From assembly GCA_938028705.1 (NCBI GenBank), contig CALIZI010000020.1, positions 1 to 35,200 on the forward strand: DNA of 35,200 nt, in the 5' to 3' direction. This stretch comes from an uncultured Saprospiraceae bacterium (GTDB lineage: Bacteria > Bacteroidota > Bacteroidia > Chitinophagales > Saprospiraceae). Numbering within the stretch: position 1 is the stretch's first letter; every line of letters begins with the position of its first letter. Shown here piece by piece: positions 3,412 through 35,200 of this stretch. The position numbers and the translations under genes were made by a program. The notes beneath the pieces were generated by a model. It worked only from the letters and a program-made list of their open reading frames with translations. It was not told where the DNA came from and made no database searches.

Positions 3412-3413
3412 AA

Positions 3414-4223: not shown

Positions 4224-4227
4224 TATT

Positions 4228-5079: not shown

Positions 5080-5134
5080 AATATTATAAATAAAAATTCA
5101 TAAAACACAATATCGAATATGTTTTAAAAATGGT

Positions 5135-7264: not shown

Positions 7265-7283
7265 CTTAAATCAAGTACACTGC

Positions 7284-8546: not shown

Positions 8547-8551
8547 ATTTT

Positions 8552-14469: not shown

Positions 14470-14708
14470 GGTTGCACTGAAATTAGCCGTTTTTTAATTA
14501 ATTAAAATTATTTTAAAATATATTTATTATTAAAAAATTAATGGTCGCACTGAAATATAGCCATTTTTAAATTAATTAAAATTATTTTATAATTTATTTA
14601 TTATTAAAAATTAATTATTTATAAATATTTTTTATTGTAAAATAATTTAAAATCACTCTTATTTCAGTAGAACCAATTAATTATTTATAAATATTTTTTA
14701 TTATAAAA
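14470..14708. repeat. AT-rich direct and inverted repeats around GGTYGCACTGAAAT
   Basis: Two adjacent units of about 73 bp start with GGTTGCACTGAAAT (14470) and GGTCGCACTGAAAT (14543) and continue as nearly the same A/T block. A third, inverted copy of the head (TATTTCAGTAGAACC) ends at 14674. A second block, AATTAATTATTTATAAATAT, occurs near 14610 and again near 14677. The arrangement resembles a small foldback element with flanking repeats. No coding capacity was seen. Confidence 0.75.
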
Positions 14709-15548: not shown

Positions 15549-15703
15549 ATCATAATAACTGGACATTGGAGAATTAGGAAATTTTGCATTAGGTAAAATG
15601 CTGATTATCAACAATTTGAATTAATTTATATTTTATTTTAAATAAATTTTATTGTAATATTCATTTTACTGATAAATAATAAATTGTACCTTTGTTAGCC
15701 TAA

Positions 15704-15917
15704 CTTGACAATGTCATGTTCGATTTTTATTTAATATAGTTGGTATTTTGCTCTTGAATTTGGGCTAAAACTCGTCTGACATTTTCAAAATTCACCGATG
15801 ATGTCATATTTTATCCTGCAAAGTTTAAATGTCTGACGAGTTTTAGCCCAAATTCGGAAAAAATATCCCATGTTAAATACAAACATATTTTTATTTTTAA
15901 AACATGATATTGTCAAG
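15704..15917. repeat. Nested inverted-repeat element downstream of the megasynthase operon
   Basis: The outer arms are CTTGACAATGTCATGTT (15704-15720) and its inverse at 15901-15917, with one mismatch in 17. The inner arms are a perfect 29-bp inverted repeat at 15756-15784 and 15827-15855 (GAATTTGGGCTAAAACTCGT and onward), with a 42-nt loop. The architecture looks like a small non-autonomous mobile element, although the inner hairpin could also act as a bidirectional terminator between the convergent ends. No clear target-site duplication was seen. The core TCGTCTGACA is shared with the element at 31718-31854. Flanks at 15560-15600 and 15926-15966 carry the GGACTTTG repeat family. Confidence 0.72.
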
Positions 15918-15969
15918 CTAATTACCGAATTTTCCAGTTACCCAATGTCTATTTTGTTCAAAGTCCAAA

Positions 15970-18060
15970 TTATAACACTTGTTCCGGCACATCATTCTTC
16001 GTTTTGTCCATATTTGTTGCTTTGTCTTTCATCACCTTTAAGAAAATCTTTTGATACTTTTTAAAAAAAGCGGTGGCTTCAGGGTCTCGTTTTGAATCCA
16101 TATCATTAAATACATATCTGCTTTTTTTCTTTATTCTCAAATATTGTGCAAGGCTGTGGGTCAAAATCATTGCCCCAAGCGGTATTAAAAAATGTCCAAA
16201 TATACTGCCGAGTATCAAACCTAAAAGCAAAATCAGGTGAGCAGTATAATCCCATAAATTGTTCCTTCTGGCATTAGGAATGCCCCAATTTCCATTGATA
16301 AAAGTTGCTGCCAAATGGGCAGGAATAATCGCTGTTAGGGCGATGGGAAGTTTAATAATCAGAGATATGGGAAGTAATAAAATGGAAAATATTATATTGT
16401 AAAAAACGAATAAATACAATGCAAATATATATAAATTTCCTGCAAAATGATAGTGTTCATCTGCAATTTTATCCACCAGTTTGGCTGCACCGGAGATAGC
16501 ATACTCTCCCTTTTGCCTATAATAATAAGGATTATTGGGAGATAAAAAATATTTAGCCAGATCTTTGAGGCTTCTCACTTCCCTTAATTTGGGCTGAATG
16601 CCCATTAACTCACCTATTTCTTCTGTATAAAATCCATAATAGACCAAATGGTCGGAAGGTTTTTTATCGGCAGAGAGGTAGTGTTGTTTATTATATTTTT
16701 TAATTCTTTTAGGGATATTGGTACGAATAGAATCATAAAAATCTTTTTGAGTGATCATTTTATGAGCAAATATGGATTGCATTTCTGTGATGTTATTAAG
16801 CCCTCCGGTAAAAGGTCGGGTATAACCTAAGAGATAAATATTATTTAACTCCGGAGCGATCATCCCCATAAAAGTTGAGCGATAATCATAATGAAACTGC
16901 TCCAATGTTCCATTATCATTTTTATAGAGTATTTCAGGAAGTGCCGGTGTTTCGCGGTCTCCTTCTATGATAAAATCATACTTTACTTGACGGTCACCTG
17001 AAGATAATTCTTGAGTTTCCTTATTGATTTGAGTATTACTTTTATCCCATAAATTTACATAACCTTGGTCTATGTAAAAAGGTAAATCGTTTAGGAGAAA
17101 TCCTTTTTTTATAAAATTCTCTAAATCATGTAAGTGCGTTGTTTTATAAAAATCTATGGGCCAATATTTGATGGCTATGTTAGAATTGTCAGGAAATTTT
17201 GAAGTCTTTACAAAAGGAATCCAACGTAGATATATATTTATTAAAGATTTCCATAACCTTTTAATCAGGTCTTTACGAATAGTAAGCGGGTATGCTTGAG
17301 TAAAATTATTCGGTCCGTACAAGAATGAAGATAATTTTCTCGGTAGAAGGAAAGATAGAAGATAGCCTAAGGAAATAGTGCCTTCATACATGGTAGGAAA
17401 GTATTTTGCCACGTTATGAAATTCGAATTGATCCACAGTCGCAGTAAGATTTTTTGAGAGGTATTTGGGAGTCTGAAACTGCTTATCTAAGGCGATAAAA
17501 CCATTGGATAGCAATTCTACTTTTGCACCAAAACAAACTAATTTGGCAATGAGTAAATTTCCTGAGTCTCCAATACTCGTGATGGCAATTGTTTTTCCTT
17601 TAAGATTTTCATCAAATTTAAATTGCTTGAGGCTATGGTGTATTTTTCGTTTGAATGCTGTTGCTACAACAACGTTTTTTGCCTTATATTGCGTTCCATT
17701 AGATAATTGAACTATGGAAAAGGAGTCGTGATTTTCAATTTTATCTACCCTTGTTTTAATGGTTTTTGGCGCGTAAATTTTAGCATACTTTTTTAAAAAC
17801 CCGTAATACTCGGCAGAAGTCGGATAACAATCTCCCAATTTATCGTTGTTTCTCATCATATCTATCAACTCAAATGAAAAATAAGAGGTATATAGAGAGC
17901 TGACCAAATCAAAATCTAATCGGTCGTTAGCCTCCAGTTCAGCCCAAACCGACTTTCCTTCATTAATGATCACGTATTCATCTCCTGTACGGTCCAGTTC
18001 TTTAAGCAGAGGAATGGCTGACAAGCCGCCACCTATTATTAAATTATCTATTGTTTGCAT
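15970..18060 (-). CDS. FAD/NAD(P)-dependent oxidoreductase with C-terminal membrane domain
   Basis: A 696-aa flavoprotein resembling FMO/pyridine-nucleotide oxidoreductases. The N-terminal dinucleotide fold is LIIGGGLSAIPLL (8-18). A second Rossmann segment, KTIAITSIGDSGNLL (156-170), would bind NAD(P)H. YLLGYTRPFTGGLNN is a late FAD-contact-like block. Residues about 543-640 hold three to four hydrophobic segments followed by a basic stretch (RIKKKSR), so the protein is probably anchored in the cytoplasmic membrane. It starts 11 nt after the phosphopantetheinyl transferase gene and is the last gene of the operon. It is therefore a likely tailoring enzyme, such as a hydroxylase or desaturase-like oxidant of the lipid product. 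The reaction is unknown. Confidence 0.72.
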   Translation of the reverse strand: MQTIDNLIIGGGLSAIPLLKELDRTGDEYVIINEGKSVWAELEANDRLDFDLVSSLYTSYFSFELIDMMRNNDKLGDCYPTSAEYYGFLKKYAKIYAPKTIKTRVDKIENHDSFSIVQLSNGTQYKAKNVVVATAFKRKIHHSLKQFKFDENLKGKTIAITSIGDSGNLLIAKLVCFGAKVELLSNGFIALDKQFQTPKYLSKNLTATVDQFEFHNVAKYFPTMYEGTISLGYLLSFLLPRKLSSFLYGPNNFTQAYPLTIRKDLIKRLWKSLINIYLRWIPFVKTSKFPDNSNIAIKYWPIDFYKTTHLHDLENFIKKGFLLNDLPFYIDQGYVNLWDKSNTQINKETQELSSGDRQVKYDFIIEGDRETPALPEILYKNDNGTLEQFHYDYRSTFMGMIAPELNNIYLLGYTRPFTGGLNNITEMQSIFAHKMITQKDFYDSIRTNIPKRIKKYNKQHYLSADKKPSDHLVYYGFYTEEIGELMGIQPKLREVRSLKDLAKYFLSPNNPYYYRQKGEYAISGAAKLVDKIADEHYHFAGNLYIFALYLFVFYNIIFSILLLPISLIIKLPIALTAIIPAHLAATFINGNWGIPNARRNNLWDYTAHLILLLGLILGSIFGHFLIPLGAMILTHSLAQYLRIKKKSRYVFNDMDSKRDPEATAFFKKYQKIFLKVMKDKATNMDKTKNDVPEQVL

Positions 18061-18071
18061 ATTGTGTAGAT

Positions 18072-18917
18072 TTAATTGATGTGGTCAGTTGAGAAATTAT
18101 TAAAGTCCGAAAGATTTACTTTTCTGAAACAAGACATAGGAATGGCTTCGCAAGCCGAAATTCGATATGCTTTGTTATGGTTATTTTTTACGGCTAATGA
18201 CAAAAGATGCTCATGGGCAAAATTCAGATTATAAAATTGCCATAAATAAGGTTCATTTTTGTCAGAATGTTTAAAAGATATTTTTATTTCATTTTTGGGA
18301 AAGGAAAAACAGAACTGATCTAGTGGGGTCGTCAAGCCTGTTCCGCAGGCTTTTAGATAGGCTTCCTTTAAAGTCCATATTTTTACAAACGCCGGCTTAA
18401 GCTGTTCAGGAGATAAACTGCATAGTTCTTTATATTCTAATGGGGAGAAAAAAGATTCAGCAATATTAAAGATGTCAATATCTCTTTCGAGCGGTTCTAT
18501 ATCTACTCCAATATTCTGTTCTAAAATAACTGCTAAAACAACTAAATCTTTTGTATGAGAAAGGCTAAATTGGAGTGCTGTGTCCATGAAATTCCCTATA
18601 AAAGGTTTTCCATAGATGCCTTTGTAAAAAAATATATCTTTTGAAGTAATATTTTCCAAATATTGAGCCAATGCCCATCTGAGTAAGCCCCTGCTTACGA
18701 GGTAGTTTTGTTGGTCTTCTTTACGGAAAAATCTATTTTGCTGCACTTTTTCTTCCTCGGAGCATAATGCTTTATATTGATTTAGGAGAGCCTGCTCCCA
18801 ATCCCGCGTTAAGTGGGTGTACCAAATATCAATTTGCCCCGATAATAGGCTTCGTTTTTCAGGGATAGCCGAAGACCAACCAGTCATTTTTTTTATCTGA
18901 TCAATTTCTGTGTGCAT
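18072..18917 (-). CDS. 4'-Phosphopantetheinyl transferase, Sfp type (PfaE-like role)
   Basis: A 281-aa enzyme that moves phosphopantetheine from CoA to the conserved serine of carrier domains. The Sfp-type motifs are present: SLSHT at 118-122, the Mg2+-binding GVDIE with D139 and E141, and FVKIWTLKEAYLKACG with E185 and K189. The pseudo-dimeric length of 230-280 aa is right for Sfp/PfaE. Its ATG lies 17 nt inside the pfaD end and the flavoprotein gene follows after 11 nt, so it is cotranscribed. The obvious substrates are the two carrier domains of the KS-AT-ACP megasynthase and the stand-alone ACP across the spacer. Confidence 0.93.
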   Translation of the reverse strand: MHTEIDQIKKMTGWSSAIPEKRSLLSGQIDIWYTHLTRDWEQALLNQYKALCSEEEKVQQNRFFRKEDQQNYLVSRGLLRWALAQYLENITSKDIFFYKGIYGKPFIGNFMDTALQFSLSHTKDLVVLAVILEQNIGVDIEPLERDIDIFNIAESFFSPLEYKELCSLSPEQLKPAFVKIWTLKEAYLKACGTGLTTPLDQFCFSFPKNEIKISFKHSDKNEPYLWQFYNLNFAHEHLLSLAVKNNHNKAYRISACEAIPMSCFRKVNLSDFNNFSTDHIN

Positions 18918-20469
18918 AATGATTTTCTTTGATTGGATATCTATGTGCCAGTTCCGGGAGGTTTATTCCCTGCAATCGCAAGATATGTTTGCGCTGTTCA
19001 AAAGCACAACCATGCATTATTTTTTCGGCAATATCGGCAACATGTCTTGATTGATAATTTTCAAGATAGCTGCCTGCTACCCATTGATTAAAAGCACCCA
19101 TTGAGGGTCCTACCCATATCTGATAATCTAATTTTCGTTGAGCAATTCCCTGCGTTGCCCAAGCCGATGAACGCCCTAAATAAGACCGGAAGATTAAAGC
19201 CATCTTGTGTTTAGGGTTTTTTTCAGCCTTAGCAATCTGTCGGGGGTCTATGTTTTCAAAATAAGCAATACAACCCTGCCATACCTGTTCAATAGGCGCT
19301 TGAAAAAATTGTTTTTCCAGTTTTTGAATGGTGTTTGCCGGAATCTCATCTATACTGTTATGCTTCTTATAAAGATCATACAGTAATTGCGCTCTCATGG
19401 GGTACATAGTTCCTCTTTTAAGTACTTGTAGTTTTACGCCCATTTCAAACATATCAGCGGCGGGTGCCATTTCTACATCGCTGCTGCTTGTTTCAGCCAA
19501 CATTTTTCTAACCTCATCACTTGTTCCAGATTCCGTACAAGCCTGATTGATAGACCCTGTCATAATAAAGGAAGCTCCCATAGTAAATGCTGCTAAAGCC
19601 GATTCGGGTGTACTAATGCCTCCGGCTGCCCCTATTCGTATAGCATCAGCAAAAGGAAAATCTTTGCTTACCTTATTTTTAAGTTGTATAATAGTAGGCA
19701 AGAGAACTACGAGCGGCCGGTTGTCTGTATGTCCGGCAGAGTCTGCTTCAACTACAATATCATCTGCCATAGCAATATGTTTTGATAAATTTACAATGGC
19801 TTCGGAAATCTTACCCTGTTCGTATAAGGTATTAACCATTTCTACAGGAGCGGGCTGCATGAATTTTATGGCAACTTTCGGGCTTGAAATTTTTGCCATT
19901 ATTTTATGATGGCTTTTTACAAGTCCATCTTTATCTTGATAAAGCCCTTTTAATCTATATTCAACCAGTGGCAAAGTGAGGTCCATAAATGCAGAAACCT
20001 CCGCTCCTTTAACTTCATTTTTTAAGAAAATATCTACTACTTGCTGCTCCATAGCAGGTATTTGAGGGTTATGAAGCAAATTGACCATAAAAGGCTGCGA
20101 ACCGAGTTGTGATTTTATTTTTAAAATACCCTTTTCAATCTGTTTCAGGTTTAATATACCCGCTCCAAAACTTGCCAACATTCCTGCTTTTCCCATTGCA
20201 ATAACCAGTTGTGGAGAGGCAATACCGTTTGCCATAGCACCAGTAACGTATGCATATTTAGCTTTATATGCTGAACGAAAACGGGAATCGCCCAGTTGTT
20301 CTGGAAAAATGGCAGGTACCACAGCCTGTATGCTTGAGTTGGGGGGAAGTTGTGCCGCCGGCTCCTCATGTAAACTCAGTTGATTTCCTTGTTTTGCAAC
20401 AATTAACTTCTTCTCTGTTTGAGCTAAAAGCTCCAGCATTTTATGTTCAGTTTTAATGATTGTTTCCAT
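18901..20469 (-). CDS. pfaD: PfaD-type FMN-dependent enoyl reductase
   Basis: A 522-aa stand-alone trans-acting enoyl reductase of PUFA-synthase and trans-AT PKS systems (FabK/nitronate-monooxygenase-like TIM barrel). Characteristic pieces are YVTGAMANGIAS (74-85), EADSAGHTDNRPL (241-253) with probable catalytic H247, and the FMN-phosphate segments IGAAGGIST (279-287) and GASFIMTGSINQACTESG. The N-terminus has the short PfaD extension before the barrel. It would saturate selected 2-enoyl-ACP intermediates with NAD(P)H. A 94-bp gap separates it from the upstream fusion gene, enough for an extra promoter. The family assignment is secure. Confidence 0.95.
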   Translation of the reverse strand: METIIKTEHKMLELLAQTEKKLIVAKQGNQLSLHEEPAAQLPPNSSIQAVVPAIFPEQLGDSRFRSAYKAKYAYVTGAMANGIASPQLVIAMGKAGMLASFGAGILNLKQIEKGILKIKSQLGSQPFMVNLLHNPQIPAMEQQVVDIFLKNEVKGAEVSAFMDLTLPLVEYRLKGLYQDKDGLVKSHHKIMAKISSPKVAIKFMQPAPVEMVNTLYEQGKISEAIVNLSKHIAMADDIVVEADSAGHTDNRPLVVLLPTIIQLKNKVSKDFPFADAIRIGAAGGISTPESALAAFTMGASFIMTGSINQACTESGTSDEVRKMLAETSSSDVEMAPAADMFEMGVKLQVLKRGTMYPMRAQLLYDLYKKHNSIDEIPANTIQKLEKQFFQAPIEQVWQGCIAYFENIDPRQIAKAEKNPKHKMALIFRSYLGRSSAWATQGIAQRKLDYQIWVGPSMGAFNQWVAGSYLENYQSRHVADIAEKIMHGCAFEQRKHILRLQGINLPELAHRYPIKENHYAHRN

Positions 20470-20563
20470 ATTTGTTTAGTGCTGTTAGTCGTTATTTGTG
20501 TACTCATTATTCGTCTTGCATTTTTTTAATAACGAGTAATTTATCGTCAATAATAACTGTCTG

Positions 20564-23500
20564 TTATTTCGGATGCAGACCATTAGTTATATATGCTTCT
20601 GTAATGGCTATAGCAAAATCATGTATATAATAGCACCTCAGATTTCCTTTAAACAAATCGCCATCGGCTATAACCAGTATTCTACCTTTTTCTTTTTTAA
20701 TTTCTTTAATATGAAGTTCTATGCTCATATCCGGGTCTGTTCTTAAAATTTGCCCACGGTATTTCCATGTGGTTTCTATATCTAAAGCTAATCCGAATTT
20801 TGGACTATTAAACTCATTGCGTCCAATATTGTGTTCAATAATATACAGCTGAAGTGCTTGATAAAGTGCTTCTATACCCAATGAACCGGGCATAACCGGG
20901 TCTTGATGAAAATGACACGTAAAATACCAATCAGTCGGTTTGATATTTTTGTAACCATACACATATCCCAATCCATACTTGCCTCCACCGGTTAGTATTT
21001 TTGCCTGATGAAGTAAGTTGAGTTGTTGTACGCCCAACCTGTAATGAGGCTTATCTGGTGTAGATTCAAACAAAGGATTATTGATTTCTTTTTGAAGATT
21101 GCAAGATTTCATTCGCTTGGCTTCAATGCCTTGTTGTAAGTGCCAGAAATCTTTGGTTTGTCCATTATCCAATCCTAACTGATTTTCTAATGCCTGTGCT
21201 TGAAAATATCCAAACAGAGATTCTCCTTCATAAATCAGCCGTTCATCAACCCTTAATGAAAAACTAAAATTTTGAAGTATAGAGCCGTGTACAGATTGGG
21301 TAGATAATAAAGTAGATGTAAAGCGTATTGTTTTGCCTCTTACATCAAGGTCTTTTAAAAAATTAGCTTTCCCTTCTAAATTACGAACCGAAAAATTAGT
21401 TGTTGAATTATTGAGTGTTGCACCTAAAAAATAGCCTAAAAAAACACTGGCTTGCAATGCGGCTTCGAGATATAAAGATGCCGGAATAGCCGGAAAGCCA
21501 TTGTGCTCTAAATACCAAATGTTGGTCGGAACATCATATTCTATTTCCATCATACTCCCATTTGCATAGGTCTTTCTTTCCCCTGTTACACTCACCACCC
21601 TATCTACAAATTGAAAATCTCCATTAGGCAAACGAACCCCCCGCTGACCTTGCCGGTCATAAATAGCAAAATCTTCTCCCAAGGCGATTAAGTGTTTTCC
21701 AAGCGAAGAATGTGCCACCTGAAATTCATTCATAACCACCGGCGTACCATCTGCCAATCGGCGACCACTGTAATAACCTTTTGCTCCAAATCTATTGTTT
21801 ATAGAAATTCCGGTAGTTTCAATCAAGCGAAGTGTGAGGGCATTAAATTCCATTATAAGCGAAGCATCACCATAAATTTTAATGTCGGCTTTTATATAGG
21901 GTCTGGGCAAAAAACCTGTTTCATAAATATCAATCACATATACTAATTCAGCTATTTGCAAATTAGCTTGCGGATACTGTCTGACTTGGTCGCTATTTAA
22001 TTGGTCTGGAATAAACTGAACGCCCTGAAAGCATTGATGCAGTCCAATAGATAGCGCAAAAGTTTTCAATAACTCTACTGCCCCAGTATGTAATAAGTTG
22101 ATTAGTGTTCCCTCATCAAGGTTTTGAATATTTAGCTCATTCGCAGTTAATGTTTTTTGAGTCTTTAAGGTATAAACCTCAGAAGGTGAAGACCGTTTCT
22201 TGAAGTATATGATATGTACTAATTGCTGTACTTCTTTGGACAGCTTTAAGTTATTACCGGTATAAGATTGCCAACCCTTACCAAAAACTAAATCGAGTGC
22301 ACCATTGCATAATTCTTGAATATCCTCCGGTCCAAGTTCTTGTTTTTTTGATTTTAAAATGGGTTTTATGAATTTCCCTTTCCGTTCATTTATCTGCGGT
22401 TTAGTATCGCTGATGAATCTTTTTTGGATTAGTTCCTTTTTTGTTTGTTGGAATGGTAATGATACTGGCTGTGCATCATCAATAACCTTATTAATTTCGC
22501 TGAATAAAGCATCTGTAAATACCGCATTAGAACGCAAAAAAGCATTGTGCGAACGATGAATGTTATTCATTTGCTTTTTAAAGTATGACTTAGCATCATA
22601 GTTCAATAGTTGTTTGGAAATAGGTGGAACGATTAACTGTGCTGCGGGCTGATATGCTATTTGCGGTGTTTTACTAACTAAAGGCACTTCAACCAAATCA
22701 TTTTCAAATACCTTTGCAGGCTTTTTGATAAAATGAAAATCCCAATAAAATAAGTCTTCTTCGGAGATTTTCGAGGGGCTTAATGCTTCTTGTATAGGAG
22801 TTGCTGATTTTTGTTCAGTAAAACGCCCATTAGCACGGTATGCTTCGGAACTTATTTGTATTTCGGGAGGGCATAATTTATCTAGTGCCATAGGAATTTG
22901 TAAGCTGATAAGTTTAGCCAGCAACTGTTCCATACTCTGCACGTCCGTTTTACCGCGTTGAGAAATAGTGAAGCTATGATACCCTTCTTTTTTGGGCAGG
23001 TTATCTGCTACCCATCTTGTACAAGTACCTCCGGGTCCGACTTCAATAAATGTTTCCACACCTAATTCAATAGCTTTGCTCACCATTTTAGGAAAGTTTA
23101 CCGTATTGAGGTATCCTTTCGTCATTAATTTTGAAATGTGTGCAGGCTCATAATTGTCATAAACATCAAATTTTCCTGCGGAGATGAGTTGAAGTTCAGG
23201 TGCCGGCTGATGAGTGGGTAAACAAAAAAGTGCATCAAAATCTGCAGACAGTTCTTCTATAATAGTGTTATGAATAACATAAGGAATAGGTACTTGAATT
23301 GCCTTACAATTTAAGCGTTTTATGAGTTTGTTGAGCTGTTTAGGGCTTCCAGAAACCATTAATTCATTGGGGCTGTTAATATGCGTAAGAAAAACACGGT
23401 CAAAAGAATGTAGCTCTTCCCTCACAAGTGTTTCCTGTATAAATAATACGTATGCCAGCCATATTTCATCTTTGTCGGTTTTATCATTTAATTGCCATTT

Positions 23501-25207
23501 CTCTCTTAAAAAGTTATGATTGCCACTTAGTGTATTTTTAAAAAGATGGCTTGAATGAACCAATCTGGTAGATGAACTAGAAATATCCCATACTCCGTTG
23601 GCATATAAAACGGTGCTATCTCCCAAGCTATAACCAAAAGCCACCTGATGATTTAACTCAAAGATTTCTTGCAGTACTTTGGTATAAATAATTCCTAAAC
23701 AACTGATACTACTTGTAATAGCGGGGATGTCTTTCAGCATACCGGTTGTTTCGAGTTCCATAAAATCCTCACCTTCAAGTGTACGAAGGCTCTTTGGAAA
23801 AATAAGATAATCCGCTAGGGTTTTGCCTAAGTCGTCAATGGCTTCTTCGAGTTGTTGAAACTGACGTGGAAACAGCCTCAATAAACCATTTGCTAAATAT
23901 GGGTATGCGGTAAAACCGCCCGGATATACTAAAGCGACTTTTCCGTTGGAAGGTGCCGGAAAGAAACAGCTACCGCTAGGCATTTTCCACGGCAAATTGC
24001 TATTCGCATCAAGGTGGCTAATGAGTTGTTGAGCCTCTTTTTGTAATTGATTCAAATTTTTCGCTATAATAGAAGCGGTTACACCCAAATGTCCTGAAGT
24101 AATATTTTTCCAACAATCATTTTTAAACCGCTCATAGTCTAATTTGCCTTGTTCAATACCTTGGCAGATGTTGTAAAGCTCTTGTTTTAGGCTTGCGTTA
24201 TCTTTTGCTGTTATTGGAAATATATGATGAAGCCTTGCAAAGAGGCTTTCTTCTCTGTGCCAGTCTGCTTCGTAGATTTGGAGGCTGTCTAATTTGCCGA
24301 CAGATGAGGTAAATGTCAATAAAGCCGCTCTATCCTTTTTTGTTTTTTTGAACCAAGGGTAAGAAAACTGAGGGCGGTGGCACGATGTATCTTTAAAAAC
24401 ATCTTGTATTTTATCGTCAAGATGAGCAATTATTTTTCCTTTTGCAGGAATATAACGATGATGGATTGAAAGTACGGTTAAAATAAGCCCTGTTATGGGC
24501 GATACCGTTCCAAGTTCACTCAGGCATTCTTCGGAGGATATAATGGCGGCAGATTGTGTTTGTTTTAAGATAAAAGATAAGGTGGTCTCCAAAAATTCAG
24601 TCTCTATATTTCCACAGATATTCACTAAATCAAAAGGAGCTGCCTGTTCCTGTTTGTCTGAATTTTTTATCGTTGCATATCTTCTAATATTTCTATTTTT
24701 TGCCGCTTCATTTTCCATTAGGAAAATAGCTCCGGATGTTTCATCCTGCGTTCCTATTAATACGCCATCGATTTTTTTTTGTGATAGTAAAAAAGTAGCT
24801 TGTTCAATTGCTTCAACTAAGCTGTTGTCAGTATCTGGTTTATTTGTAAAAATTACTGAAATTCTATTTTTTTCAATAATTTCAGACAAATTTAAACCTG
24901 TATTTGAAAATGCTTCTTCAAATGCGTTTAAATCAAAGGCAGATGCCGTCATTTCATCAGACGCTGAGGCATTTGGTATCCCATCGAACAATCTACGTTC
25001 AAAAGAACTAAGGTTATGTAATGCCCCCAATGATATACCCATCCCTACAATGGCTATATCTTTGTAAGGCGTATTTTTTTTCTGATGGGCTTTCGCTACT
25101 GCAACGGTTGAGGAGCTTTGTGCTTGTGTCCTCAATGTTTTCCAAAATGACTTTAGGTCATTTATTGTAGGCATTTCATTTTTATAATTAGCAAAGGTAG
25201 TTCTCAT
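20564..25207 (-). CDS. PfaB-PfaC-like fusion: degenerate KS, acyltransferase, two FabA-like dehydratases
   Basis: A 1547-aa protein. Residues about 49-290 form a shortened ketosynthase-like domain (DIAIVGMGISLG) with no nucleophile-elbow cysteine, as in PfaB. An acyltransferase spans about 420-760, with VALVYPGG, nucleophile S527 in GYSLGD and H646. A linker and pseudo-hotdog region runs from about 870 to 1190. Two FabA-like hotdog dehydratases follow: DH1 around H1235 (WYLEHNGFPAIPASLYLEAA) and DH2 around H1432/E1446 (HFHQDPVMPGSLGIEA, close to the FabA active-site motif). Canonical PfaC begins with KS-CLF; that half is missing and a PfaB unit stands in its place. The start overlaps the upstream stop (ATGA). 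An alternative start is M12. Confidence 0.85.
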   Translation of the reverse strand: MRTTFANYKNEMPTINDLKSFWKTLRTQAQSSSTVAVAKAHQKKNTPYKDIAIVGMGISLGALHNLSSFERRLFDGIPNASASDEMTASAFDLNAFEEAFSNTGLNLSEIIEKNRISVIFTNKPDTDNSLVEAIEQATFLLSQKKIDGVLIGTQDETSGAIFLMENEAAKNRNIRRYATIKNSDKQEQAAPFDLVNICGNIETEFLETTLSFILKQTQSAAIISSEECLSELGTVSPITGLILTVLSIHHRYIPAKGKIIAHLDDKIQDVFKDTSCHRPQFSYPWFKKTKKDRAALLTFTSSVGKLDSLQIYEADWHREESLFARLHHIFPITAKDNASLKQELYNICQGIEQGKLDYERFKNDCWKNITSGHLGVTASIIAKNLNQLQKEAQQLISHLDANSNLPWKMPSGSCFFPAPSNGKVALVYPGGFTAYPYLANGLLRLFPRQFQQLEEAIDDLGKTLADYLIFPKSLRTLEGEDFMELETTGMLKDIPAITSSISCLGIIYTKVLQEIFELNHQVAFGYSLGDSTVLYANGVWDISSSSTRLVHSSHLFKNTLSGNHNFLREKWQLNDKTDKDEIWLAYVLFIQETLVREELHSFDRVFLTHINSPNELMVSGSPKQLNKLIKRLNCKAIQVPIPYVIHNTIIEELSADFDALFCLPTHQPAPELQLISAGKFDVYDNYEPAHISKLMTKGYLNTVNFPKMVSKAIELGVETFIEVGPGGTCTRWVADNLPKKEGYHSFTISQRGKTDVQSMEQLLAKLISLQIPMALDKLCPPEIQISSEAYRANGRFTEQKSATPIQEALSPSKISEEDLFYWDFHFIKKPAKVFENDLVEVPLVSKTPQIAYQPAAQLIVPPISKQLLNYDAKSYFKKQMNNIHRSHNAFLRSNAVFTDALFSEINKVIDDAQPVSLPFQQTKKELIQKRFISDTKPQINERKGKFIKPILKSKKQELGPEDIQELCNGALDLVFGKGWQSYTGNNLKLSKEVQQLVHIIYFKKRSSPSEVYTLKTQKTLTANELNIQNLDEGTLINLLHTGAVELLKTFALSIGLHQCFQGVQFIPDQLNSDQVRQYPQANLQIAELVYVIDIYETGFLPRPYIKADIKIYGDASLIMEFNALTLRLIETTGISINNRFGAKGYYSGRRLADGTPVVMNEFQVAHSSLGKHLIALGEDFAIYDRQGQRGVRLPNGDFQFVDRVVSVTGERKTYANGSMMEIEYDVPTNIWYLEHNGFPAIPASLYLEAALQASVFLGYFLGATLNNSTTNFSVRNLEGKANFLKDLDVRGKTIRFTSTLLSTQSVHGSILQNFSFSLRVDERLIYEGESLFGYFQAQALENQLGLDNGQTKDFWHLQQGIEAKRMKSCNLQKEINNPLFESTPDKPHYRLGVQQLNLLHQAKILTGGGKYGLGYVYGYKNIKPTDWYFTCHFHQDPVMPGSLGIEALYQALQLYIIEHNIGRNEFNSPKFGLALDIETTWKYRGQILRTDPDMSIELHIKEIKKEKGRILVIADGDLFKGNLRCYYIHDFAIAITEAYITNGLHPK

Positions 25208-28200
25208 TTATTCATAAACTTCTCGTGAAAAATCATACTCTTAACTACAGATACATTCGCTGATAACAAAATTTTATTATCCGGTGTCATTCCCGTTATA
25301 GTCAATTCGGTTTGGTGTTCTTCCTTATTGAGCAAATTCGTTTTAAGGATAACTTCTGTTCCCCTTAAGATAGGCTGATAGCAACGTAGATTACTAACTT
25401 TCATCGGTATTGCCGGAAGCTGCTCATAAGCGATTACCCAAAGTGAAGCCGCCTGCATTATAGCATCTCCATACATTGGGCAAAAGCTTTGTCCACTATG
25501 CTGTTCTATAAAAACCGGCTCTTGTATATACGAACTATCCGAATCAACAGCCCATTTACATTTATAAGTTAATCCGTATTCACCAAATTTTCTGGATGCT
25601 TCCATCATTTGGAAGCGTTCTCCGTGAAATAAAGCATTGTCGTGATAATAACCCAATGCTTCGGGGTGTTTAGGTATTTCTTCTATCATTGGAATTTGAG
25701 CCGGTTGAGCTAATGGTTTTTGAGTGATTAGAATATTTTTGAATGAGTAGTAAGCTCTTTGAGTATCGGAATGAAATAATCTGGCATCGGCATACAATGT
25801 TTCATTTTTGATGTCTTTAAATTGAAGATGCAGCGTGAGTTCGTCCATTAAGTTTTCATCTACTACAATTTTATTATTGACCTGCACTTGCTCTATTCCG
25901 CTAAAATGTACAGATGCAAACATTCTTTCGATTACCTTAGCTACTCGACCTATTACAAAAGAGACGGGTAAAATATTGTTTCCTCCTATCCTGTGATGGT
26001 CCAATAATTTACTTGCTTTCATTTGAGCGGTACTGATTTTTATACTATGGGAAGTATTTGCCCATTCACTCAAATTTTCTTTTTTAGGAGCTAATCCTGA
26101 ATTAGGACCGACCATAATCAGCGGTGCATCTTTTTCGTTCAGACAAATATCTACAAAATGGTTTATGCCTTCTTCCACCTCAATCATTTTAACACCGCGC
26201 GCCTCAAATTGTGCTTTAATTTCAGCACTAACCATTCCTGCATTCCACGCACCCCAAATAATTGAAACTGCACGGGCATCTTGTGACATTAGAGATTGCA
26301 TGCTTATGGCTTCTCTGTTCAAGATTTCATTAGCCATTGCATAACCGACTTGCCCGATATTTCCGAATAAACCGGCTACCGAAGAGAAGAGACAACAGAA
26401 TTGTAATTTGTCTTTGTCAATACATTCAAAAACATTCCACAAACCTGTGACTTTAGGTTGAAATACTTTGTCAAAATCTTCCGGTTTTTTGTCTTCTATA
26501 AGTCTGTCAGCTAAAGCACCCGCTCCATGAATAATAGCTACATTGCCCGATTCCGTCATCCATTTGTCTTGTTCAAAACACTGTTTTACTTCGGCGACAT
26601 TCGTAATATCCAGCTGTACATATTTTGCATCTACGCCAAGTGCCTGTAGGCTGGATAATGTTTGACCTATTTCTCTAGAACTGATTACTTTTTTGACCAA
26701 GCTGCTTATGGCTTTTGGAGTCGTCGCTTCTCCGTGTTCTTTCAAATGGGTAAAAGCGGCTGCTTTAAGCGCTTCGTCGGCTATTCCTACTGCCCATTCA
26801 GCCGGCTCCGGGTTATATGCTGACCTTCCCAGGAGGATATATTTACCGGATACCTTCTTCGCAAGTCCGATAATGCAATGAGCCGTAATTCCTTTTGCTC
26901 CACCCGTCACAATAAAACAAGTGTCATTTGGTAAATCGTAATCTTTAGAACTTTGTGGCGATGCTAGTTTAAAAGTATATCTACCTTCATCAGAAATACC
27001 GATATCGGTTACATTTTTGTTGACATCATGCAATTCGTGATTTATTTGGCTAGCTGCTTTTGTAAAGTTCATTTGAGGGTCTATGTCAATGGCTTTGGTA
27101 AATACATATTTTGTCTCGGCATTTAGCGTTTTAATCAGTCCGAAGGCACCTGCCGAAGTATCTCCAAGTGTTGTTTGATTAGAAAATCCGAGTTTACCGT
27201 CTATTTGGGATATAGTGATGAATGCTTTTCTAAAGTTGTGTTTAACATCCAGTTTTTTCTTGAAAAATTTTGCTGTCATCAATAAGGCTTTCAAGGTATC
27301 GGGGTTTTGATTTTCTTTTGCGGGAAGGCAAAATACGACTATATCAGATGCTGAATAGGGAGCAAGTTGGTCTGACCAAGAAGATAATGGATTGGATAAT
27401 AAAAATGAAGATACCTCAAAATCGTTATTTTCAAGTTCTTTTGTGAGGCTATGCTGAAATTCATTTTGCTCGCTAATAATTAAGCAGCTGCTGCCCTTTT
27501 CAAAACAATTTATCAACTCATCTATTTCACCGATTTTAGTGAGTTGAATGGAATGTTGGGCAATTGACGGTGTGAACACCGTTTGAGTCTCCTCGCCGTT
27601 TTGATAACTCCCGTTTTGATGACTACCATTTTGTGTAGTTGCTAATACCTGAACTCCGACAGCCGATGGATTATTGGGCAAAAAATAATCTATCAGTTGT
27701 TTGATGGTCTTAGTGTTTCCGGCGGCTTCACTGTCCATTTCGGATAAATCGGGATAGGCTACTCGCAATGCGCCTAATATTTCCACCCTTTTGATAGAGT
27801 CAATACCTAAGTCTGATTCTAAATCCATGTCTATTTCCAAAACATCTTCAGGATAGCCTGTTTTTTCACTCACAATGGAAATAAGCGTACTTTCGATTTC
27901 TTCTTTTGTGAGTACATTCCTTCCATTTTGAGTTATTTCAACAGGCTCGCTTTTCGATACGGCTCGTGAAACACCATTCGATAAAGGCTGCGTATTTGCT
28001 GATGTGGTTTTTTTAAAATAGGATAAAAAATCTTGAATCGTATTAAAGTTGGACAATTCTTCCTCATCTTCTATACTATCCGAAAGGTGTTTTTTTAATT
28101 CACCTAATATTTCTACCCGTTTGATTGAATCAATGCCTAAATCAGCTTCAAGACTCATACCGGGTTCTAATACCTCTTGTGGATATCCTGTTTTTTCTGA

Positions 28201-31200
28201 AATAGTTTGAAACAGGAGTGCTTTTACATCTATTTCTTGCGAATCGGCTGTCTGACGACTCGAAGCGTGTTCAATACTTGTAATGTGGTTGGGTTGGGAT
28301 GCCTCACCGTTGGTATGTTTAGGGGCTTTTGCCGAATAGTCTATTCCATTTGTGTGGGTTTGCGGATGGGCTTTAGGGGCTAATAATCTGTTTTGCTCTT
28401 TAGGAGTATTTATATCAGGTGGAATAGTTGGTGGAACAATTGTTTTATTGGTAAGGTTAGCACTTACACTATCCAGATAAAGTTCATGCGTTTTTGACAG
28501 CATTTCCTGCGATTTACCAATCAGCTCAAAGCCTTGATTCAACACTTGTACCATTTCTTTCGGTAAGTTTTCTCTGGTTTCAATTTTATGTAACAAATCG
28601 ACAGTTTTGTGAACAGTTCCTGCGGATTCAGATAGGTATAATTTGTGACTATCAGAGACTCCTTCTTGCATTTTATATATCGAATTTATTTTATCAGATG
28701 TGCTAAAATCAGAACTTTGTGAGTTGGTATGCACTGTTTGTTTTTCAAGTGTTTGGGGAATAGCCAAATCTTGTTCGGGAGGAGCTAAGGTTTCAATAGT
28801 CGGAGTAAGTGGTTCTTGACCAGTTGGCTTATCAGCTAGAGGCATAACTTGTTTGGGAGGATTATTTAAGGCTATTTCCCATTGCTCTTTTTTCGATTTG
28901 CTTTCATATTGTGCCCCGCTAAGTGTAACCAATGGTCCTTTTTTTATCGGGGCTTCTTCAAAGTCAGAATAAGCACTTTTAAGTGATGCCATTTCGATAC
29001 CTAAAACCGCCAATTGCAGGCTTGCTTCATTGATTTGATGGGCAGATATATCTTCGCTTCCATTGTCGCAAGCAATAGTATTCACCGTAACACCTAAGTC
29101 CTGACTGATTTGATGCACAATTTTGCTTAGAATAGCCTTCGGTCCGAATTCTACAAAGGTTCGGAACCCATCTGCTATCATGTTTTCAATAACATTTTGA
29201 AATTTAACCGGCTGAAGTAGCTGTTTTTTTAAGCCGGCTTTCAAACTTTTTGCTTGTGTGACGGCTTTTCCATCCTTATTCCTGTAGAGTGGTTTTACAG
29301 ATTTTTTGAAGGTGACCGACTCTACTGATTTTTCAAATGACTGCGAAGCATGAGCAACTAAAGGCGTGTGAAAAGCCGCCGAAACATTTAAAGGAATAAA
29401 ATTAATATTGGCTTGTTTAAGGACAGTAGAAAAGATATTGACAGCTTCTTTAGTTCCTCCAATTACAATTTGATGCTCGGAATTATAATTGCATAAGTAA
29501 ATACCTTCTATATTCGTTTTCTTTATTAAAGCCTCGATTTCCTGTGCATTCGTCCGTACAGCCAACATTCCTGAATCCGGGGTGCTTTCATTGGCTTTCA
29601 TAGCCTGACCGCGTGCTATCGCCAAAGAGACATAATCATCCAACTCAATACATCCCGAAGCAAATAAGGCGGTGAGTTCTCCAAAACTATGTCCGGCAAA
29701 ACCATCTATTTTTAGCCCGTTTTTTGTTAGAAGATGATAGGCAGCCAGAGAACTCCACCCGATGGCAGGTTGGGCATTTTGTGTTAAACTCAGCACCGCA
29801 GATTGCTCTTTTTTTAGCTTTCCATTAGATACCTCATAGGGAAAAATCTTATCTGCTAATGACTCTTTCGTGATTTTTATGTATTGCTGCTCAAATTTTT
29901 GCAACAAATTGACATACTCCGGGTAATAAACCGAAGCACCTCTAAGCATATTTACATATTGGCTTCCCTGACCGGAGAAAAGACCGGCAACTTTCCCTCC
30001 GGCTCTACCCTTACAAAAGAATATTCCTTTAGGATGCTTCCACTTATCCAATCCTTCATTCTTTTTCAGAAACTCAATAGCTAAACCGACTTTTCCCGAC
30101 AAATCTTCCAGATTAGATACAATAAATCCAATACGCAAATCATTTTCATTGCCTTGTTCGTATGGCAACTCAACAAGTGCTTTAGTATTAGTTATTGATT
30201 GCAGCTTACTCAACAAGCCGGCATGGTCAGTAGCCGAAAGAAGCACCTGTGCCACTCCTGTATGCGTTCTTCCCGGTCTGTTATCACCTGAATATTCTTC
30301 CAGAACAGCATGAAAATTGGTACCCCCAAAACCAAAGGAACTTACCCCTGCATATCTTTTACTTTTTTCCGGTCTTAATACCCATGGTCTGGTTTCTACA
30401 TTAGGGTATAGTGGAACTTCAGGATTTTTCAAGATGTCCTGAGGAGTCTTAATATTGATGGTCGGCGGTAAAATCTTATGGTGTAAGGATAGCGCAACTT
30501 TAATAATACTTGCAGTTCCGGCTGCTGCTTTAGTGTGTCCTAACTGAGATTTTACCGAACCTATGGCTATATTTTTAGGCGTATTATTTCCAACTACAGT
30601 AGCTAGTGCTTCCAGTTCTGTACGGTCTCCGACTTTTGTTCCGGTACCGTGTGCTTCTATCAAGCCTACTTGATTTATCGGAATATCAGCTTCTTTGTAT
30701 GCTCGTTTCAAGCATCTTATCTGACCTGCCTTTCTTGGTGCATAAATACTTTTAAACCTCCCATCACTTGATGCCCCCAAGCCTCTAATGACTGCATATA
30801 TCTTATCTCCCGCAGCTTCTGCATCCGACAGTCTTTTTAAGGCAAGCATAGCGATTCCTTCTCCTAATATAGTTCCGTCTGATGCTGTGTCAAATGGAGT
30901 AATGGCTTCTGACGGGCTTAATGCCGGAGTTTTAGAAAAACACATATACATTAATATGCTGTTTTCTGCATCACAACCTCCAGTTAAAATCATATCAGCA
31001 CGACCACTCTGCAACTCATCTATGCTCATACGTAAGGCAGCCAGCGAACTGGCACAGGCAGCATCAACAGTGCAGTTGGTGCCTCCCAAGTCAAATCGAT
31101 TGGCTACCCTTCCGGCAACTACATTGCCAAGCATACCCGGAAATGAATTTTCTTCCCAAGGAGCAAAAGCTTTTTTATAAGTACCTGTAATGTCTTCGAT

Positions 31201-31680
31201 TTGTTCTTGATTAAATCCCCTACTACGAAGAATCTTCTCGATAACAGGTGTTTGCAGACGGTTTGAGAGTGGTTGAATAAGTGTGAGGGCACTGGTAATA
31301 CCTAAAATGACACCAGTACGTTCTTTGAGATTTTCAAATTTTTTATTTTCATAATGTCCTGCATCAAATAATACAGATTTAGCCACACTCAAACTTAGCA
31401 TTTGAAGAACTCCTGTAACATCTAAATTTTTGGGAGGAATGCCAAACTCTAAAGAATTAAAAGCAACATCCGGAATAAAACCTCCCTTACGACAATAAAT
31501 TTTATCCTCCGCTGACTTATCGGGAGAATAATAATCTTCAATGTTCCAATGTGTGTCCGGAACATCTTTGATGCCATTATGTTTTGATAAAATATTTTCC
31601 CAGTATTCTTTTAAATTACCTGCGTCAGGAAATATACCAGACATTCCAATGATAGCAATAGGCTCGGAATTTCTATTCAT
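25204..31680 (-). CDS. pfaA: PfaA-like multidomain lipid/polyketide synthase (KS-AT-ACP-ACP-KR-DH)
   Basis: A 2158-aa iterative megasynthase. KS (about 5-460): C209 in DAACASS, H344 in EAHGTGT, H382 in SQLGHTKAAAG. Malonyl-type AT (about 565-880): S665 in GHSFGE and H771. A helical linker (1000-1080) has two similar HKLYL/HELYL stretches. Two ACPs carry the PUFA-synthase motif LGIDSIKRVEIL (S1185, S1295). KR (about 1380-1860): TGGAKG at 1592-1597, S1766/S1767 and Y1780. A C-terminal PS-DH-type double hotdog has DHHRIGGNNILP (H1895) and D2072. NG-rich linkers separate the domains. Marine PUFA synthases usually carry five or more ACPs; here there are two. It is the first gene of the operon and is translationally coupled to the next. 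Confidence 0.93.
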   Translation of the reverse strand: MNRNSEPIAIIGMSGIFPDAGNLKEYWENILSKHNGIKDVPDTHWNIEDYYSPDKSAEDKIYCRKGGFIPDVAFNSLEFGIPPKNLDVTGVLQMLSLSVAKSVLFDAGHYENKKFENLKERTGVILGITSALTLIQPLSNRLQTPVIEKILRSRGFNQEQIEDITGTYKKAFAPWEENSFPGMLGNVVAGRVANRFDLGGTNCTVDAACASSLAALRMSIDELQSGRADMILTGGCDAENSILMYMCFSKTPALSPSEAITPFDTASDGTILGEGIAMLALKRLSDAEAAGDKIYAVIRGLGASSDGRFKSIYAPRKAGQIRCLKRAYKEADIPINQVGLIEAHGTGTKVGDRTELEALATVVGNNTPKNIAIGSVKSQLGHTKAAAGTASIIKVALSLHHKILPPTINIKTPQDILKNPEVPLYPNVETRPWVLRPEKSKRYAGVSSFGFGGTNFHAVLEEYSGDNRPGRTHTGVAQVLLSATDHAGLLSKLQSITNTKALVELPYEQGNENDLRIGFIVSNLEDLSGKVGLAIEFLKKNEGLDKWKHPKGIFFCKGRAGGKVAGLFSGQGSQYVNMLRGASVYYPEYVNLLQKFEQQYIKITKESLADKIFPYEVSNGKLKKEQSAVLSLTQNAQPAIGWSSLAAYHLLTKNGLKIDGFAGHSFGELTALFASGCIELDDYVSLAIARGQAMKANESTPDSGMLAVRTNAQEIEALIKKTNIEGIYLCNYNSEHQIVIGGTKEAVNIFSTVLKQANINFIPLNVSAAFHTPLVAHASQSFEKSVESVTFKKSVKPLYRNKDGKAVTQAKSLKAGLKKQLLQPVKFQNVIENMIADGFRTFVEFGPKAILSKIVHQISQDLGVTVNTIACDNGSEDISAHQINEASLQLAVLGIEMASLKSAYSDFEEAPIKKGPLVTLSGAQYESKSKKEQWEIALNNPPKQVMPLADKPTGQEPLTPTIETLAPPEQDLAIPQTLEKQTVHTNSQSSDFSTSDKINSIYKMQEGVSDSHKLYLSESAGTVHKTVDLLHKIETRENLPKEMVQVLNQGFELIGKSQEMLSKTHELYLDSVSANLTNKTIVPPTIPPDINTPKEQNRLLAPKAHPQTHTNGIDYSAKAPKHTNGEASQPNHITSIEHASSRQTADSQEIDVKALLFQTISEKTGYPQEVLEPGMSLEADLGIDSIKRVEILGELKKHLSDSIEDEEELSNFNTIQDFLSYFKKTTSANTQPLSNGVSRAVSKSEPVEITQNGRNVLTKEEIESTLISIVSEKTGYPEDVLEIDMDLESDLGIDSIKRVEILGALRVAYPDLSEMDSEAAGNTKTIKQLIDYFLPNNPSAVGVQVLATTQNGSHQNGSYQNGEETQTVFTPSIAQHSIQLTKIGEIDELINCFEKGSSCLIISEQNEFQHSLTKELENNDFEVSSFLLSNPLSSWSDQLAPYSASDIVVFCLPAKENQNPDTLKALLMTAKFFKKKLDVKHNFRKAFITISQIDGKLGFSNQTTLGDTSAGAFGLIKTLNAETKYVFTKAIDIDPQMNFTKAASQINHELHDVNKNVTDIGISDEGRYTFKLASPQSSKDYDLPNDTCFIVTGGAKGITAHCIIGLAKKVSGKYILLGRSAYNPEPAEWAVGIADEALKAAAFTHLKEHGEATTPKAISSLVKKVISSREIGQTLSSLQALGVDAKYVQLDITNVAEVKQCFEQDKWMTESGNVAIIHGAGALADRLIEDKKPEDFDKVFQPKVTGLWNVFECIDKDKLQFCCLFSSVAGLFGNIGQVGYAMANEILNREAISMQSLMSQDARAVSIIWGAWNAGMVSAEIKAQFEARGVKMIEVEEGINHFVDICLNEKDAPLIMVGPNSGLAPKKENLSEWANTSHSIKISTAQMKASKLLDHHRIGGNNILPVSFVIGRVAKVIERMFASVHFSGIEQVQVNNKIVVDENLMDELTLHLQFKDIKNETLYADARLFHSDTQRAYYSFKNILITQKPLAQPAQIPMIEEIPKHPEALGYYHDNALFHGERFQMMEASRKFGEYGLTYKCKWAVDSDSSYIQEPVFIEQHSGQSFCPMYGDAIMQAASLWVIAYEQLPAIPMKVSNLRCYQPILRGTEVILKTNLLNKEEHQTELTITGMTPDNKILLSANVSVVKSMIFHEKFMNK

Positions 31681-33256: not shown

Positions 33257-33502
33257 ATGGAAAAAAAAATAATACAAGAATGGATGATTGAAAAAGTCGC
33301 ATCTAAATTAGATTGTAAAAAAGAAGATGTTGATATTGATAGAAATCTTACAGATTTCGGATTTGATTCTACAGATATATTATTAATGATCGGAGAGTTA
33401 GAAAGTAAAGCCAATATAAAATTGAAATCTAATTCAATATGGTATTATCCTACTATAAATAAATTATCGGCTTTTATTGAAGATAAGATAAATAGTAAGT
33501 GA
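33257..33502 (+). CDS. Stand-alone acyl carrier protein
   Basis: An 81-aa four-helix carrier protein. The phosphopantetheine attachment site is S38 in DFGFDSTD, followed by the helix II ILLMIGELE and the PKS-type end WYYPTINKLSAFI. This pattern is closer to polyketide/non-ribosomal carrier domains than to housekeeping FabC/AcpP (usual DSLDxVE). The ATG at 33257 is the only reasonable start. It is divergent from the megasynthase operon, upstream of a type II thioesterase gene, and bracketed by two inverted MITE-like copies. It could serve as a loading or off-loading carrier for the Pfa-like synthase, modified by the operon's phosphopantetheinyl transferase; the partnership is inferred from proximity. 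Confidence 0.88.
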   Translation: MEKKIIQEWMIEKVASKLDCKKEDVDIDRNLTDFGFDSTDILLMIGELESKANIKLKSNSIWYYPTINKLSAFIEDKINSK

Positions 33503-33932: not shown

Positions 33933-34886
33933 ATGAAATTATCTTTTGCAAAAGCTATCAATAGACCCGAAAACGCAAAGGGAAACATTATTTTTTTTCA
34001 TCCCGGAGGTTTACCGGCTAGAGGAATTTCCCAGATAGCTCAAAGTTTTCCTGCTTACAACTTCACGTATATAGAAATAAGACTTGTTTCAAGTTTTATA
34101 AATGCTTTTAGCCCCGAAGGAAAACAACTCAACTCTTTGACACAAATAGCACAGGAAATACTTTCAGAGATTTATGACAAAAATGACCTTCCCAGCCTTT
34201 TCTTAGGATGGTCTTTAGGTGGAGCTATTGCGTTTGAAGCAGCCCATTTATGGCAAGGAAGCAAAAAACCTGTTTTGTGTTTTTTGGACAGTACAGGTCC
34301 ACATGCTGCAGACTATTTTATTAGTAAGTGGTTTGGGGAAGCAAATTTTCAAGCATTCCTGAAAACAAGTGGTAAATCAACATTATCTGAATTAGATGCT
34401 TCAAAGTGGTTTTCATACTCTGACAAAGGGATGAATTTAAGTTTTATATCTAAATACTTCACTATGTATCTCAATGCACTAAGGGAAGTTAATATTCCAC
34501 TGAAACCACTCAACCATAGCCCCATTAGTCAGACTGATTTTATGACAGAACTCATGGAGGAGGCAATTAAATACGGTGCTTTTGATGAAAGTTTAAGCGC
34601 TGATGGGTTTTATAAAGTCTTTGAGGCTTATAAGGAAGGTATAATTATAAGTATGGTCATTATTATAAGCCACACCTATCAATATTATGACGGCACTTTG
34701 CTGCTTTTCAAAGCTGATAATAAAGACTTGGGAGATTCAAATGAGCCACCTTATATGGGGTGGCAAAAACTATTTTCCAAAATACATCCGGTTTCCGTGC
34801 CTTACGATCACTATGCCATATTAAGTAGTGAAGCTTCAGAAAAATACTTAATCAAAGAAATATCCGACTTGTTAGAAACTATTTAA
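33933..34886 (+). CDS. Type II thioesterase (alpha/beta hydrolase, PKS/NRPS associated)
   Basis: A 317-aa alpha/beta hydrolase with the TE nucleophile elbow GWSLGG (S94), an early FFHPGG oxyanion loop (21-26), a probable acid D119 (CFLDST) and catalytic H293 in VPYDHYAIL near the end. It is longer than the roughly 240-250 aa of typical editing thioesterases because of an insertion around 130-250, which may form a larger lid. It resembles thioesterase domains that hydrolyse acyl groups from carrier proteins. It is in line with the ACP gene (430 bp apart, with a MITE between), so it may release or proofread chains of the nearby synthase. The substrate is unknown. Confidence 0.83.
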   Translation: MKLSFAKAINRPENAKGNIIFFHPGGLPARGISQIAQSFPAYNFTYIEIRLVSSFINAFSPEGKQLNSLTQIAQEILSEIYDKNDLPSLFLGWSLGGAIAFEAAHLWQGSKKPVLCFLDSTGPHAADYFISKWFGEANFQAFLKTSGKSTLSELDASKWFSYSDKGMNLSFISKYFTMYLNALREVNIPLKPLNHSPISQTDFMTELMEEAIKYGAFDESLSADGFYKVFEAYKEGIIISMVIIISHTYQYYDGTLLLFKADNKDLGDSNEPPYMGWQKLFSKIHPVSVPYDHYAILSSEASEKYLIKEISDLLETI

Positions 34887-34887
34887 G

Positions 34888-35186: not shown

Positions 35187-35200
35187 CAATTAATAAAAAT

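Follow-up and report, generated by a model that had tools for sequence, protein, structure and literature searches.

Canonical bacterial polyunsaturated fatty acid (PUFA) synthases, encoded by pfaABCD genes, carry a PfaA with a ketosynthase (KS), a malonyl-acyltransferase (MAT), tandem acyl carrier proteins (ACPs) and a ketoreductase (KR), together with a second condensing unit, a KS paired with a chain-length factor (KS-CLF), in PfaC, and two FabA-type dehydratases (DHs) with catalytic motifs. The PfaA KS is described as cycling to C18:4 with the last elongation by the KS-CLF (as cited in PMC12895367), or as serving C18-C20, with the PfaC KS serving C20-C22 (as cited in PMC8305795). PfaB is described as a monomeric terminal acyltransferase (AT) with a KS-like part (KS') that is likely a scaffold (PMC12895367). 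Reduced clusters are also on record: Type J consists of pfaD and pfaA alone (PMC3098273), the CLF is missing from some cyanobacterial pfaBC genes, and the pfaBC of an Ottowia has no KS-CLF (PMC13291983). Here we describe a five-gene Pfa-like operon in 35,200 nucleotides of DNA (the window) from an uncultured Saprospiraceae bacterium of the Bacteroidota (GCA_938028705.1). The window is one complete contig (CALIZI010000020.1) of an 8.0 Mb genome that is 98.47% complete. The operon has one complete KS and no KS-CLF subunit, and its last gene encodes a homologue of the single-component flavin-dependent halogenase AetF.

The operon consists of five minus-strand open reading frames (ORFs) spanning 31680-15970, all uninterrupted and tightly spaced: the first two overlap by 4 bases, 94 bases separate the second from the third, the third and fourth overlap by 17 bases, and 11 bases lie before the fifth. 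ORF calls together with Pfam and NCBIfam matches bear out the coordinates and the gene order (PfaA-like, fusion, PfaD, phosphopantetheinyl transferase (PPTase), flavoprotein) given in an initial annotation made from the sequence alone. The genes and their domains are as follows.

25204-31680, minus strand: PfaA-like synthase, KS-MAT-ACP-ACP-KR-DH, 2158 aa (TIGR02813 1512.6 bits against a cut-off of 1010.1; Pfam; motifs)
30286-31665, minus strand: complete KS, C209-H344-H382 (PF00109/PF02801, motifs, tree)
29086-29982, minus strand: malonyl-transferase-like AT, GQGSQ and GHSFGE (PF00698, motifs)
27682-28215, minus strand: two ACP domains, LGIDSIKR at 1181 and 1291 (PF00550 in two stretches, motifs)
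26242-26916, minus strand: KR (PF08659)
25231-26013, minus strand, approximate borders: polyketide synthase (PKS)-type DH, DHHRIGGNNILP at 1894 (motif; alignment with KR-DH proteins of relatives)
20564-25207, minus strand: PfaB/PfaC-like fusion, KS'-AT-pseudoDH1-DH2, 1547 aa (profile searches, alignments, structure model, motif survey)
24218-25072, minus strand, approximate borders: KS' pseudo-domain without a Cys-His-His set (alignment; model matches PfaB 9ry8 from residue 46)
22868-24085, minus strand: PfaB-type AT, GYSLGD (Y526-S527) and H646 (9ry8 at E 4.2e-24 and Z 43.7; motif)
21788-22384, minus strand: degenerate first FabA-type DH, pseudoDH1 (alignments, motif survey)
20588-21760, minus strand: second FabA-type DH/isomerase, DH2, CHFHQDPVMPGSLG at 1431 (PF07977, motif)
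18901-20469, minus strand: PfaD-type enoyl reductase (TIGR02814 621.1 bits against a cut-off of 449.25)
18072-18917, minus strand: PPTase (PF01648, 5.4e-18)
15970-18060, minus strand: homologue of the single-component flavin-dependent halogenase AetF, hydrophobic in its C-terminal part at residues 539-634 (AetF 372 bits, E 4.7e-110; E213, K298, GGGLSA, hydropathy)

The PfaA-like protein has the KS-MAT-tandem ACP-KR arrangement of the canonical enzyme. Its previously proposed domain order stands by Pfam up to the KR; the terminal PKS-type DH is recognized by motif and alignment and has no match to the Pfam DH models. By motif search, C209, H344 and H382 of this protein form the only complete KS catalytic set in the operon, as the initial annotation had claimed, and the domain search that it had proposed as a check gives no match of the Pfam ketoacyl-synthase model in the fusion protein. 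In the whole genome, PF00109 was found at five places: the window KS, a FabF (contig C118; TIGR03150 598 bits, above cut-off), a discrete FabF-like KS under the fabF cut-off with an adjacent PPTase gene (contig C241), and two thiolases (contigs C392 and C175). A 950-residue KS-CLF query returned three matches in this genome, the top one being the window KS at 34%; as a positive control, the same query gave 460 bits for the KS half and 320 bits for the CLF half in a cyanobacterial genome that does encode a KS-CLF. A separate pfaC-type KS-CLF gene, the other check proposed earlier, was therefore found by neither search of the genome, and the proposal of a single KS for all elongation gains support. 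The second condensing unit of canonical PUFA synthases is absent from the operon, and one FabA-type DH motif is present where canonical synthases have two. The gene content is that of one-KS Pfa-like secondary lipid synthases, with a sole KS in the pfaA homologue, a pfaBC-like protein keeping AT and FabA-type DH, and pfaD.

Homologues of the fusion protein at E 1e-20 were found in 61 of 398 genomes of the same family, in 13 of 396 at order level and in one of 395 at phylum level, with the source genome counted each time; no match was found in viral contigs. In 20 fetched regions from the same family, the pfaBC proteins (2,244-2,343 aa) all have KS and CLF matches by BLAST (20/20). Compared with these 20 aligned proteins, four of which were inspected in print, the fusion is without the KS, carries some 280 residues in place of the CLF of about 450 residues, and is missing the first part of DH1 and its CHF..D...G motif. 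A model of fusion residues 1-796, built from 41 aligned sequences (predicted local distance difference test score, pLDDT, 84.5), has Shewanella baltica PfaB (PDB 9ry8) as its best structural match (Z 43.7, 3.0 A, 594 residues; runner-up Z 33.7), and residues 330-781 match the same entry by phmmer at E 4.2e-24. The AT of the fusion reads GYSLGD, with Tyr preceding Ser and with H646 as the alignment-invariant His, whereas the AT of the PfaA-like protein reads GHSFGE. The Tyr before Ser is essential in Moritella PfaB, and malonyl transferases have His there (PMC12895367). Because the model matches 9ry8 and the AT has the Tyr-Ser pair, the N-terminus of the fusion is read, on this modelled structure, as a PfaB-like KS'-AT, which differs from PfaB in being joined to pseudoDH1-DH2. 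The earlier description of a PfaB/PfaC-like protein without KS-CLF thus holds, with the loss of the first DH motif as an unremarked addition.

A scan of named genomes gave 385 relatives, 80 of which were kept as loci. In 11 of these loci, a PfaA-type KS occurs together with a DH2 protein and KS-CLF is missing. Eight are actinobacterial (L077, L099, L103, L120, L128, L133, L134 and L140) and three cyanobacterial (L098, L117 and L143; additional modular PKS genes are present in L143). In seven of the eight actinobacterial genomes, the whole-genome KS-CLF query gave no CLF-half match among the matches listed, with best KS rows of 220-264 bits. The one-KS state in Pfa-like clusters is therefore not new, given these loci and the pfaBC genes without KS-CLF published in 2026 (PMC13291983). 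We also surveyed 101 DH2 proteins, of which 87 remained once 14 with truncated starts had been excluded; these are not independent, because some contig regions enter the set twice as separate loci. KS, AT and DH1 motif occur together in 67 of them, AT and DH1 in four cyanobacterial proteins, KS and DH1 in two, and DH1 only in two, one of which (L109) comes from a split gene. Eleven proteins, all actinobacterial, lack KS, AT and DH1 motif, and the combination of an AT without KS and DH1 motif was seen only in the window fusion. Judging by these motifs, KS loss does not always bring DH1 loss, since some DH2 proteins without KS keep the DH1 motif. A supplementary motif survey of 24 chosen loci gave results for 23. 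The proteins without KS-CLF that retain the DH1 motif are L077 and four from cyanobacteria; the window fusion and 11 actinobacterial proteins are without it.

Each described relative shares a different part of this architecture. Actinobacterial one-KS clusters (Nocardia, Amycolatopsis, Actinokineospora, Thermocatellispora) have a PfaA with one KS and, in 11 proteins, a lost DH1 motif with DH2 kept, and the window KS groups with them; however, these 11 DH2 proteins have no AT, and no AetF-like gene was found in their 11 genomes. The cyanobacterial clade II of PMC13291983, probably the same as Type G of PMC3098273, is represented by L098, L117, L143 and partly L125. Here the KS is in pfaA only and pfaBC has an AT without KS-CLF, as in the window, whereas the DH1 motif is kept (4/4), pfaA is split, PKS and nonribosomal peptide synthetase (NRPS) genes are attached, and no AetF homologue was found in the four genomes. 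A putative tryptophan halogenase is described beside some Microcystis pfa clusters (PMC13291983). The Type D synthase of Bacteroidota (Shulse and Allen 2011, PMC3098273) shares the AT-DH-DH order of its pfaBC with the fusion, and PfaD proteins from 19 matching loci of the family are 49-56% identical to the window PfaD. In contrast to the window, with its single-gene pfaA and lost KS-CLF and DH1 motif, Type D has a split pfaA and a KS-CLF in pfaBC, and the window KS falls outside the Bacteroidota clade of these synthases.

The PfaA-like protein has no close relative among 345 genomes of its class, since of 50 matches at E 1e-60 the best from another genome is 44% identical over 1,003 residues. 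A careful tree built on 39 KS rows places the window KS with nine actinobacterial KSs (support 99/99), and a quick 106-row tree gives the same placement with support 83. Constraining the window KS to group with 20 Bacteroidota KSs, a group picked after seeing the tree, was rejected by the approximately unbiased (AU) test (p-AU 0.0063). KS stretches of 400 residues or less are excluded from both KS trees. The 106-row tree omits 17 of the 20 loci L052-L071, and the 39-row tree and the AU test omit 18; the DH2 and PfaD trees omit those 17 loci and 28 further Bacteroidota loci that are near-duplicate or incomplete. In the quick, midpoint-rooted DH2 tree, the window adjoins an actinobacterial clade. 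By phylogeny, then, the window KS belongs with actinobacterial Pfa-like synthases and not with the two-KS Type D of its own family. The window KS, DH2 and PfaD are all long branches, however, and the PfaD tree weighs against one origin for the whole operon, placing the window with its own family (support 82) on a very long branch. The operon may be a mosaic, and transfer appears likely, though not proven. Recent loss from the Type D synthase of the family was considered and is disfavoured by the rejected KS grouping, though the PfaD tree weakly points to the family.

The last gene of the operon starts 11 bases after the PPTase gene and so very likely belongs to the operon. In a phmmer search against the PDB, its product matches six sequences, all AetF (best 372 bits, E 4.7e-110), and no other structure of a flavin mono-oxygenase (FMO) at E 0.01 or less; its Pfam matches are FMO-like only. 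The initial annotation correctly placed a flavin enzyme in the operon but missed this halogenase homology. In the alignment with AetF, Lys258 corresponds to K298 and Glu200 to E213, and the GxGxxA and Phe372 positions are kept. Lys258 is essential in AetF, and such a catalytic Lys is not general among FMOs (PMC10306068). Tryptophan is anchored in AetF by Gln500, Asp516, Ser523 and Lys587, the last three holding its amino-acid part (PMC10306068). This set is not found in the window protein: Gln500 aligns with F546, the alignable part ends near AetF residue 502, and in place of the region with the other three there is a strongly hydrophobic stretch (residues 539-634; hydropathy computed for the window protein alone). 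Because the anchoring residues lie beyond the alignable part and this stretch stands there, the enzyme would act on a substrate different from tryptophan and located within or at the membrane. The enzyme also differs from AetF in its setting within a lipid synthase operon. A structure model made without an alignment was useless (pLDDT 38.8). AetF itself reportedly acts on arenes and olefins, and JamD is said to act on terminal alkynes. Among 150 genomes of the same family, only the source genome has an AetF-like protein, which serves as the positive control for the search of Pfa-bearing genomes described below; 72,556 plasmid records (threshold E 1e-20) gave no match, nor did PHROG. A Pfa-AetF cluster was not found among the matches listed in literature on PUFA synthases and on brominated fatty acids with halogenases, a weak negative since subscription papers were mostly uncovered, and passages of PMC12964715 and PMC12871659 show none.

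We propose that the PfaA KS would prime, elongate and make all C-C bonds, while the KR, the PKS-type DH, DH2 and PfaD would reduce or leave double bonds. Since the PfaC KS-CLF does the last elongation in characterised synthases, chains would stop at about C18-C20 or earlier, about where that unit would take over, and with one motif-bearing FabA-type DH they would have fewer cis double bonds than EPA (eicosapentaenoic acid) or DHA (docosahexaenoic acid). The PfaB-type AT would offload the finished chain from the ACPs, perhaps onto a discrete ACP encoded at 33257-33502 or onto a membrane acceptor. The hydrophobic tail of the AetF-like protein would keep this enzyme at the membrane, where it would halogenate the unsaturated acyl chain at the expense of NAD(P)H, O2 and a halide. 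As far as the sequences indicate, the product would probably be shorter and possibly halogen-bearing. Because a single KS serves the whole synthase, EPA, DHA or arachidonic acid (ARA) is an unlikely product, an earlier suggestion that we uphold as following from the single KS.

The description of the operon as a reduced Pfa-like secondary lipid synthase that has one KS and is served by a tailoring halogenase has, in our judgement, about an even chance of being correct; the fuller proposal, that in this member of the Bacteroidota a membrane-held AetF-family halogenase and the synthase jointly produce unsaturated lipids bearing halogen, is put forward a little more tentatively. Several points weigh against it. 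The chain length is extrapolated from other organisms, and all steps from release onward, halogenation included, are predictions from sequence. The AetF-like gene was found in none of 49 Pfa-bearing genomes, L152 not among them, in a search without its own positive control, so that the link between halogenase and synthase comes from gene order. Three AetF pocket residues are replaced in the alignment, read by hand (M217 by F253, V220 by A256 and L254 by N294). AetF is built like FMOs, some of which bind membranes (PMC10306068), and with the differing pocket this makes hydroxylation or epoxidation possible. A one-KS synthase served by a lipid mono-oxygenase (hydroxylase or epoxidase) instead of a halogenase would accommodate these features and the FMO-like Pfam matches; yet AetF is the sole FMO-type match in the PDB search, and both the catalytic Lys, which is not general among FMOs, and the Glu are kept, which leaves this alternative rather unlikely, though it deserves real weight.

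The other alternatives concern the synthase itself. Missing elongation might be supplied by FabF or by the FabF-like KS, the latter with a PPTase gene alongside, as both enzymes are present in the genome; but neither is near the operon or closer to the PfaC KS than the window KS is. To our knowledge, Pfa synthases do not borrow FabF, and we regard this supply as improbable. The KS' of the fusion, an in-frame KS-like remnant modelled with middling confidence, could act in trans as the chain-length partner of the PfaA KS, an option raised in the initial annotation. However, its roughly 280 residues compare with about 450 for a CLF, and its best structural match over 594 residues is the KS'-AT of PfaB, reported as a monomer with a likely scaffold KS' (PMC12895367), so that on the model such a role is unlikely, and we give it even less credence than a borrowed KS. 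Finally, the operon could be a decaying, non-functional remnant, given that KS-CLF and the DH1 motif are gone and that genome searches found no close relative. Against such decay, the five ORFs are open and tightly spaced, the KS, AT, ACP, KR, DH and DH2 motifs are intact, and the DH1 motif is also gone in 11 actinobacterial proteins, and we consider this the least credible of the explanations.

If the enzyme is a halogenase, a flavin-dependent halogenase would have been recruited to a PUFA-type synthase; halogenated lipids of bacteria could then be approached through their genes, and the protein would be a candidate for halogenating aliphatic substrates borne by the membrane. Whether or not halogenation occurs, the cluster is a natural test of the roles of the KS-CLF and the first FabA-type DH in PUFA synthases: with both gone and the other parts looking intact, the length and unsaturation of the chain would show what the PfaA KS can do alone.

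Two genes divergent from the operon, presumably linked to it, were missed by the earlier inventory.

33257-33502, plus strand: discrete 81-aa ACP (PF00550, 6.7e-11)
33933-34886, plus strand: thioesterase-like protein (PF00975, 7.4e-8)

The thioesterase-like protein has no match in the PDB at E 0.01. The contig ends shortly past these genes, and other genes for biosynthesis may follow after base 35200. Around the operon, short stretches (14492-14674, 15556-15921 and 34878-35001) recur, 70-90% alike, on another contig of the genome (C321) as dispersed repeats. That contig carries all four condensation-domain matches of the genome (L164, 208-7284 on the minus strand and 16689-20000 on the plus strand), as well as an ABC transporter, an ornithine cyclodeaminase-like gene and a sulfotransferase; in a search for a link between the window and this NRPS contig, only the short repeats were common to both. 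At 2293-12152 on the minus strand of the window, genes for an AAA_21 ATPase, a weak DUF3037 match, a HipA-like kinase, a DNA methylase and AAA_23 surround a 3-hydroxyacyl-CoA dehydrogenase gene, in what looks like a defence or mobile-element region.

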